Source: Chitinophagales bacterium (GTDB lineage Bacteria; Bacteroidota; Bacteroidia; Chitinophagales; UBA2359). Taken from it: a DNA stretch of 39,393 nucleotides. The stretch spans positions 1 to 39,393 of the forward strand of contig JAHDBB010000003.1 of the NCBI GenBank assembly GCA_020630635.1, given 5' to 3'. Positions 4,706-37,300 of this stretch are shown piece after piece (within the stretch, counting starts at the first letter, position 1; each line of letters begins with the position of its first letter). The notes under the pieces were generated by a model. That model had not been told where the DNA came from. It did no database searches and was given only the letters and a program-made list of their open reading frames with translations. The position numbers and the translations under genes were made by a program.

Positions 4706-4764
4706 TATTAGTGACAAGTTTTAAGTGACAAATGACTTTCAGCTCAGTTTCTGATTTTTATTTT

Positions 4765-4882
4765 TTGGAGCAAAAGGCTGGGTACTTCGTCGTTACAGAA
4801 AGTCCCGCTATCCGTTCTTATCACCAAGCCACCCGAACCCCTTTTGCCAAACTTGTTGGTGATACCACTACTATCGGGGCTA
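4765..4882 (+). repeat. Structured intergenic element, copy A (forward)
   Basis: Left end TTGGAG; arms AGTCCCG (4801-4807) / CGGGGCT (4875-4881); variable stem TATCACCAA (4819-4827) / TTGGTGATA (4856-4864), 9 bp perfect. Confidence 0.8.
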
Positions 4883-4926
4883 TTTTGAAAGGACACAACA
4901 TCCAAGAACAGTAACAAGTATGTACC

Positions 4927-6119: not shown

Positions 6120-6185
6120 TAAAATTCTAATATTTAATTTCTAAATTCTAAACTGTCCATCTTATCCGTTGTGACAGTAATGATC

Positions 6186-6332
6186 TAGCCCCGATAGTAG
6201 TGGTATGAATGTGAAGCTTGGCTAAACCAGTCAGGTTTTGAAAACTTGACTGGTTTGGGCAAGGCTAAAACAGACATAAGAACGGATAGCGGGACTTTCC
6301 ATTGCGACGAAGTCATGAACCCTTCGCTCCTA
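6186..6332 (-). repeat. Structured intergenic element, copy B (reverse), with nested palindrome in its loop
   Basis: TAGCCCCGATAGTAGTGGTAT (left on +) and ATAAGAACGGATAGCGGGACT...CTCCTA (right); outer TATG/CATA stem; internal TAAACCAGTCAGGTTTTGAAAACTTGACTGGTTT palindrome. Confidence 0.78.
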
Positions 6333-6457
6333 GCCTAAAAGATGAATAGGATTATAGGGTTTTTCGAGATTAGTAGCATTTCCATTCAGACTAAAAAAAC
6401 AGGAACTGAACCCAAAGTCACCAGTCCCTACACACTCGTCACTCAAAACAAATCAAA

Positions 6458-9077: not shown

Positions 9078-9126
9078 AATTTAGCTTTTTAAGGTTCTGG
9101 TACTAAAGGTTTTTTCCTTTACCAAC

Positions 9127-9261
9127 TAGACCTGATAGTAGTGGTATAGCTGTTTGAAGACAAGCCCACAAGTCAAAAAGACTTGCGGTAGAGCAAGGCA
9201 CAGCTATAAGAACGGATAGCAGGGAGACCCATCACGACGAAGCAACGGACGTTCTCTCCTA
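9127..9261 (-). repeat. Structured intergenic element, copy C (reverse), head-to-head with copy D
   Basis: TAGACCTGATAGTAGTGGTATA...CTCTCCTA; stem TATAGCTGT (9145-9153) / ACAGCTATA (9200-9208), 9 bp perfect; nested hairpin CCACAAGTC (9166-9174) / GACTTGCGG (9180-9188). Confidence 0.8.
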
Positions 9262-9296
9262 CTCAAAAGACAACTTCTTTTAAAGAGAATGTTTTT

Positions 9297-9435
9297 TAGG
9301 AGCGAAAGGTTTTTCTTTCATCGCTACAGAAAGTCCCGCTATACGCTATTATGGTGAAGCCTCGCTCTACCGCAAGTTTTTTCAACTTGTGGTCAAAGCC
9401 TCGCTTTTTACCATAACCGCTGCTATCGGGGCTAT
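9297..9435 (+). repeat. Structured intergenic element, copy D (forward), head-to-head with copy C
   Basis: TAGGAGCGAAAGG...AGTCCCGCTATACG...CTATCGGGGCTA; stem TTATGGT (9349-9355) / ACCATAA (9410-9416); nested hairpin CCGCAAGTT (9370-9378) / AACTTGTGG (9384-9392). Confidence 0.8.
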
Positions 9436-9487
9436 TTGGGTAAGAACAGCACTTTTGCAGAACTGTTTTAAAATCTATATAAAAAAG

Positions 9488-36650: not shown

Positions 36651-36949
36651 ACGTGAATTTCGGATTAAAATGGTATTTTTTTGAAAGGTGTTTTACAAAC
36701 CGTTTTTTGTGTGGTTTTGCCGTCCGTTTCCTTGTCTTCGCCAGACGGGCTTTCATTTTTCAGTCGATAAAAATATCTGGGCGATCCCGAAATAAAATCT
36801 TGCTCAATCACACGTTCCTCTCGCAAAGCCACACCTCGCTACCAGTAATTGAGCATTGCCAACGCTTCTTTTTCGGTTCTGATGTGAGTATTAAATTATA
36901 ATAATTTGATTTTCAGCTTATTATAATTTTACTAATCCGAAATTCACGT
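36651..36949. mobile_element. 299-bp MITE-like element with perfect 17-bp TIRs and 7-bp target-site duplication
   Basis: TIRs ACGTGAATTTCGGATTA (36651-36667) / TAATCCGAAATTCACGT (36933-36949); flanking direct repeats ACAGTTA at 36644-36650 and 36950-36956; internal inverted repeat GTGTGGTTTTGC (36709-36720) / GCAAAGCCACAC (36823-36834). Confidence 0.88.
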
Positions 36950-36980
36950 ACAGTTACTAAGGGTTCAAACCATAACCCAA

Positions 36981-37098
36981 TAGACCTGATAGGAACGGTA
37001 TACGTGTACAAGGGAGGCATATCACATAAGGGCTATACGTATAAAGAGTGGATAGCAGGCGCATGCTTTACGACAAGGCACCTGACCTTTCTCTCCTA
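36981..37098 (-). repeat. Structured intergenic element, copy E (reverse), head-to-head with copy F
   Basis: TAGACCTGATAGGAACGGTATA...GGATAGCAGG...CTCTCCTA; stem TATACGT (36999-37005) / ACGTATA (37037-37043). Confidence 0.78.
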
Positions 37099-37151
37099 AG
37101 TAAAAAACCAATAACTAATAGATTTATTTACTTTTGAAGAATCTTTATTTT

Positions 37152-37264
37152 TAGGAGCGAGCGGTTATTACTCTTTCATCGTGACGGGTCTCCCCGCTAT
37201 CCACTATTATGACAAGCCTTGCCTTTTAGCTATCCTTTTGTCATAGCCGTTGCTATCGGGGCTA
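37152..37264 (+). repeat. Structured intergenic element, copy F (forward), head-to-head with copy E
   Basis: TAGGAGCGAGCGG...CCCCGCTATCCACTAT...GCTATCGGGGCTA; stem TATGACAA (37208-37215) / TTGTCATA (37238-37245), 8 bp perfect. Confidence 0.8.
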
Positions 37265-37300
37265 GCTGATTGAGAGCAATACTCCTTAGTGACATCATTT

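Follow-up and report, generated by a model that had tools for sequence, protein, structure and literature searches.

Compensatory arm changes, strand preference and alternating orientation of a Flavo-1-type hairpin repeat in a Chitinophagales genome

In a stretch of 39,393 nt (hereafter the window), taken from a genome that, judged by its pheS relatives, appears to be that of an uncultured member of the Chitinophagales/Saprospiraceae, six copies of a hairpin-forming sequence, A to F, are found (Table 1). The question that these copies raise is whether their arms are truly held together by compensatory changes, on which strand the hairpin folds, and what kind of element multiplies and carries it. 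A preliminary description of this DNA had claimed that the conserved arms covary and had favored the forward strand as the functional RNA or single-stranded DNA.

When the window was searched against Rfam at the gathering threshold no copy passed; when an E-value cutoff was used instead, the copies matched the whole length of RF01705 (Flavo-1), on the strand opposite to the one that had been proposed. Copy A falls just under the threshold of 42 bits, at least 147 copies in the genome exceed it, and the closing, inner and apical pairs of the RF01705 consensus are present. The element is a divergent lineage variant of Flavo-1, a candidate structured RNA whose function has been unassigned since 2010 (Weinberg et al., 2010; PMC2864571).

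Table 1. Positions of the six copies of the element in the 39,393-nt window
Feature	Position	Strand	Remarks
Copy A, core	4804-4881	+	
Copy A, whole conserved unit	4756-4917	+	T-run, GGAGCRAA box, TTCGTCG box, hairpin, 3' tail
Copy A, hairpin matching RF01705 (Flavo-1)	4801-4881	-	40.5 bits, gathering score 42; contig L001, 1517-1605, minus
Copy B, core	6185-6293	-	
Copy B, whole unit	6150-6341	-	second hairpin repeat, CCAAACCAGTCA..., inside the variable tip
Copy C, core	9128-9223	-	
Copy C, whole unit	9092-9271	-	type II foot GGAGAGAA...GTCTCC; closing CCTG/CAGG
Copy D, core	9335-9433	+	
Copy D, whole unit	9287-9468	+	type I foot; inner pairs GC/GC; head-to-head with C
Copy E, core	36982-37059	-	
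Copy E, whole unit	36946-37107	-	closing CCTG/CAGG; inner AC/GT
Copy F, core	37193-37263	+	
Copy F, whole unit	37145-37298	+	inner AC/GT; head-to-head with E

The conserved unit is ~165 bp long and, as seen in 171-173 copies, conservation continues past the Rfam model from ~48 nt before the hairpin to ~34 nt after it. A T-run ~40-48 nt ahead of the hairpin comes first, followed by the boxes GGAG(C/A)GAA and TTCGTCG and then by the hairpin itself and a 3' tail of ~34 nt; the foot exists in two forms, GGAGCGAA...AAAGTCCCG...GGGGCTA and GGAGAGAA...GTCTCCCCG...GGGTCTA. The order of parts is identical in G020, a genome of another family, with TTTTTTTGAAGCGAAAC ~40 nt before the arm. Mutual information between the flanks gave a strong signal within the 5' flank and no clear additional pairs, and this signal reflects two subfamilies. 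In four contigs (L052 8633, L057 16291, L066 14285-14607 and L084 401) extra 3' halves lie 42-117 bp past a copy or past each other in the same orientation, forming a tandem repeat of the 3' arm and tail. At 1805-1855 of the window there is a near-perfect inverted repeat of 25 bp with one base separating the arms; a relative of it is the variable tip of copy B, so that this repeat family seems to be nested within a Flavo-1 copy. The window also contains a single open reading frame of 8,531 aa (9569-35164, minus strand) with a bacterial Ig-like domain and a type IX secretion sorting tail near its C-terminus, which is predicted to encode a giant secreted adhesin-like protein.

The letters reported for the arms were found in the window exactly as described: the closing helix is CCCG/CGGG in A, B, D and F and CCTG/CAGG in C and E, whilst the inner dinucleotides are GT/AC in A, B and C, GC/GC in D and AC/GT in E and F. 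These pairings hold in the wider set of copies from the same genome, where four arm pairs show compensatory double changes among ~249 distinct copies with several unrelated tip families, which supports the claim that the structure is maintained through compensatory change. Pairs were counted in 246 distinct cores of this genome. At closing pair 2 we found 203 C-G and 37 T-A, with C-A in five cores and C-T in one; inner pair 10 is G-C in 233, A-T in 10 and A-C in three, inner pair 11 is T-A in 210, C-G in 34 and C-A in two, and pair 6 is A-T in 242 and G-C in four. In Flavobacterium-like genomes pair 6 (GATNG...GGAN'AGC on the Rfam strand) can also be T-A, with a few C-G. The variants are spread over 14 (pair 2), 6 (pair 10) and 8 (pair 11) tip families, and therefore multiple origins or exchanges are required; the counts themselves are of related copies and not of independent events. 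The compensatory changes are real and lie far beyond chance, which is excluded by the additional copies.

Concerning the strand, the preliminary description relied on the outermost part of the helix, AGTCCCG/CGGGGCT, which was indeed found in A, B and D with one T.G pair, and had suggested that both strands be folded. Neither line of evidence supports the forward strand. The T.G pair is a fixed feature of the lineage that does not covary, and it is lost on both strands in about one quarter of the copies: of ~249 copies 170 carry AGT/GCT at this position, 51 carry CTC/TCT and 8 carry CTT/TCT, and the latter two forms (59 copies) are unpaired on either strand, so a maintained outer helix was not confirmed there. 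The half-changed pairs within the helix point to the opposite strand, since an A.C read forward is a G.U on the reverse strand, which is the strand of the Rfam model. Reading forward, the intermediates at the core pairs are 10 A.C or C.A and no G.T or T.G in the first set of cores, and a replicate set holds a single T.G, at the outermost pair. The interior of the tip stem gave 11 A.C versus no G.T in the first set, the inner end of that stem 10 G.T and one A.C, and the variable stem in a separate set of contigs 14 A.C versus 2 G.T, leaving its first pair aside. This first pair is C.A in 27 copies of the first set and in 13 from the separate contigs; it is perhaps one inherited change, so little weight was given to it.

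Fold energies agree with the half-changed pairs. The reverse strand of the core is lower in energy in 233 copies and higher in 16; with flanks of 5 nt it is lower in 168 versus 79 using RNA parameters and in 206 versus 33 using DNA parameters, and the same strand is lower for five of the six window copies. The two strands are thus unequal and the reverse strand is favored by wobble pairs and energies together, a result that applies to RNA and to single-stranded DNA alike, as a test of this kind cannot separate the two.

Copy statistics were taken from two samples of the genome, 543 kb and 241 kb, and from pattern counts over the whole genome. Searching the whole genome with a moderately strict pattern gave 1,315 exact matches, and its reversed control gave none. 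The density is 0.32 copies/kb in each sample, which extrapolates to ~2,000 copies in 6.3 Mb, a number that is possibly somewhat high because the samples were partly picked for holding copies. With genes called by a simple script, 170 of 176 copies are intergenic, and the flanking genes show no bias relative to the copies (48 ++, 55 --, 24 convergent and 20 divergent). The family is patchy: RF01705 was detected in nine of 41 genomes, counting the source genome, the pattern was not found in 19 of 20 relatives, and among 397 Bacteroidota genomes 61 contain the family, mainly one Flavobacterium-like genus and its relatives. In one relative (contig L092) the genes for a CoA-transferase, pheS and 3HCDH follow each other with short spacers and without the element at the sites of copies A and B; this empty site is too diverged for a target duplication or an insertion boundary to be read. 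Copy number, placement, patchiness and the empty site indicate an interspersed repeat that has spread and not an RNA gene, although site differences among relatives could in principle also reflect loss of the element. The nearest pheS relative lacks Flavo-1 at this place, and its intergenic space there holds a different repeat-like sequence rich in G+C (L091 9793-10000). Further short intergenic repeat families, TTTGACAACTTTCATGTAAA..., ACTGTTCAGTTTTTACATGTTGGGACG and TTTTAGAATTTTAAAATT..., are seen in the spacers of close copies (e.g., L051 9480-9660 and L278 10630-10770).

Another feature of the copies is the orientation of neighbors. In the window the copies run A+, B-, C-, D+, E-, F+, and only B/C break the alternation. 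In the source genome the first sample has 130 opposite pairs among 145 adjacent ones (one-sided binomial, 2e-24) and the second has 55 among 63 (5e-10), which pools to 185 opposite and 23 same. Copies that are two apart tend to agree, the mean orientation product being positive (0.59 and 0.45). Alternation is therefore shown in this genome, and it spans kilobases with genes in between. A genome of another genus (G017), with a diverged element, has 23 opposite and 3 same pairs; in G020 the numbers are 18 and 11, which is not significant. Several simple causes do not fit. Gene direction is ruled out by the intervals in which all genes lie on one strand, where 74 alternate versus 6. Local inverted duplication was rejected because neighbors are no more alike than random pairs (likeness of 0.646 versus 0.662). 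Intervals with the 3' tails pointing in (+-) are shorter than the others, 35 versus 3 below 400 bp. Short inverted pairs that insert as such do not suffice on their own: this process, together with solo copies, predicts more same-orientation pairs than long +- intervals, whereas among intervals of at least 1 kb in the source genome 43 are +- versus 22 same-orientation pairs, and G017 alternates despite having no pairs below 400 bp. A general effect of assembly is disfavored, as control intergenic repeats of the same genome, few in number, do not alternate (5 opposite, 11 same).

Our leading guess is that alternation reflects loss of, or selection against, direct neighbors via deletion. In the sample all same-orientation neighbors lie at least 2 kb apart, which this idea would predict; they are also not less alike than random pairs (0.662 in both, by a coarse identity test), which gives it no support. 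The next guess is an insertion process that senses orientation, and the pattern may also come from a boundary role or from a bound protein that senses orientation. In the literature searched no account of alternation on the kilobase scale was found.

What, then, is the element? One option is a structured non-coding RNA or UTR element, with covariation that comes from RNA function and copies that are active RNA genes. Rfam files the family as a small RNA, some F. psychrophilum copies lie in transcribed 5' regions, and one strand is favored by wobble pairs and energy; the first two of these count against a reading as mobile DNA. Yet ~2,000 copies in a single genome, in random orientation to genes and at no fixed distance from them, make active RNA genes a poor fit, and in the F. 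psychrophilum transcriptome Flavo-1 matches lie indifferently sense or antisense to transcribed regions with many outside them (PMC9723704), which is the expectation for a DNA repeat. We regard the RNA option as quite unlikely. The placement of the hairpins between genes might also suggest intrinsic terminators repeated at gene ends, an option that we reject as extremely improbable: on neither strand is the hairpin followed by a T-run, which on the forward strand instead precedes it by ~40 nt, and gaps between divergent genes hold copies about as often as convergent ones.

Intergenic hairpin repeats with inverted neighbors would also be expected if the copies were REP elements mobilized by a RAYT (REP-associated tyrosine transposase), and the Y1 transposases of this genome include two of RAYT type, as well as one of IS200 type and one further gene. 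Based on the following data this is a very improbable origin. No special framing of these genes by copies was found, and although 274 of 397 genomes of the phylum have Y1 transposases none was found in three Flavo-1-rich ones (G122, G257 and G177), so that RAYT and IS200 were both rejected as carriers; the unit of ~165 bp is also well outside the 20-40 bp of REPs. A further option is that the copies have been domesticated as boundary or architecture sites, with a protein that reads their polarity and gene blocks framed by inverted sites. Alternation over kilobases that is independent of gene direction, its recurrence in another genus whose element has diverged, and neighbors that did not arise by local copying speak for such a role; no binding protein is known, alternation in G020 is weak, and a family this patchy cannot be generally essential, and we consider this role unlikely. 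It is conceivable, if rather doubtful, that the dense copies serve as directional sites dividing the chromosome, with polarity switching between successive gene blocks and an inverted pair framing each of them, the cause being a protein or enzyme that senses orientation over several kilobases. The reading that we prefer, and hold to be probable, is that this Flavo-1 variant, an intergenic hairpin repeat of ~165 bp in ~2,000 copies, is most likely non-autonomous mobile DNA of REP/MITE type. In such a process a trans-acting enzyme would recognize the Rfam strand in its folded, single-stranded form, the paired arms would be kept since only folding copies are multiplied, and the hairpin would spread through intergenic space by means of this candidate enzyme; no transposase linked to the element was found.

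Taken together, the number of copies, where they lie and which strand they favor speak for a mobile DNA repeat that forms hairpins, and work on Flavo-1 would then take another direction. Alternation over kilobases in two genera is without a ready explanation; it would be either nature's own clean record of how direct repeats are selected against, or an indication that the direction of the sites is read by something.

In comparison with known systems, the element shares with REPs and BIMEs an extragenic location, high copy number, a hairpin, frequent inverted neighbors and heterodimers; REP dimers are often inverted as well (PMC3733652). REPs are palindromes of 20-40 bp whose foot carries GTAG or CGTC (PMC2817692, PMC3733652), whereas here no such motif adjoins the stem and CGTC is found within the TTCGTCG box, ~13 nt from the helix. 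BIMEs alternate among closely spaced units (PMC2817692), while here alternation is seen across kilobases with genes between, and no link to a RAYT was found, either by framing of its gene or by co-occurrence across genomes. As in MITEs, the repeat is short, non-coding, patchy and missing at orthologous sites; unlike in MITEs, no inverted repeats were seen at the two ends of the conserved unit, and a partner transposase was not found. The element resembles Flavo-1 as modeled in Rfam in its sequence boxes, its closing helix and variable tip, its inner helix of two bases with internal loops, and its range within the Bacteroidota. The variant described here differs from that model in its junction and tip, which drop copy A below the threshold, in its conserved flanks on both sides of the hairpin, and in the number of its copies per genome and their alternating orientation, the behavior of a DNA repeat rather than of an RNA gene.
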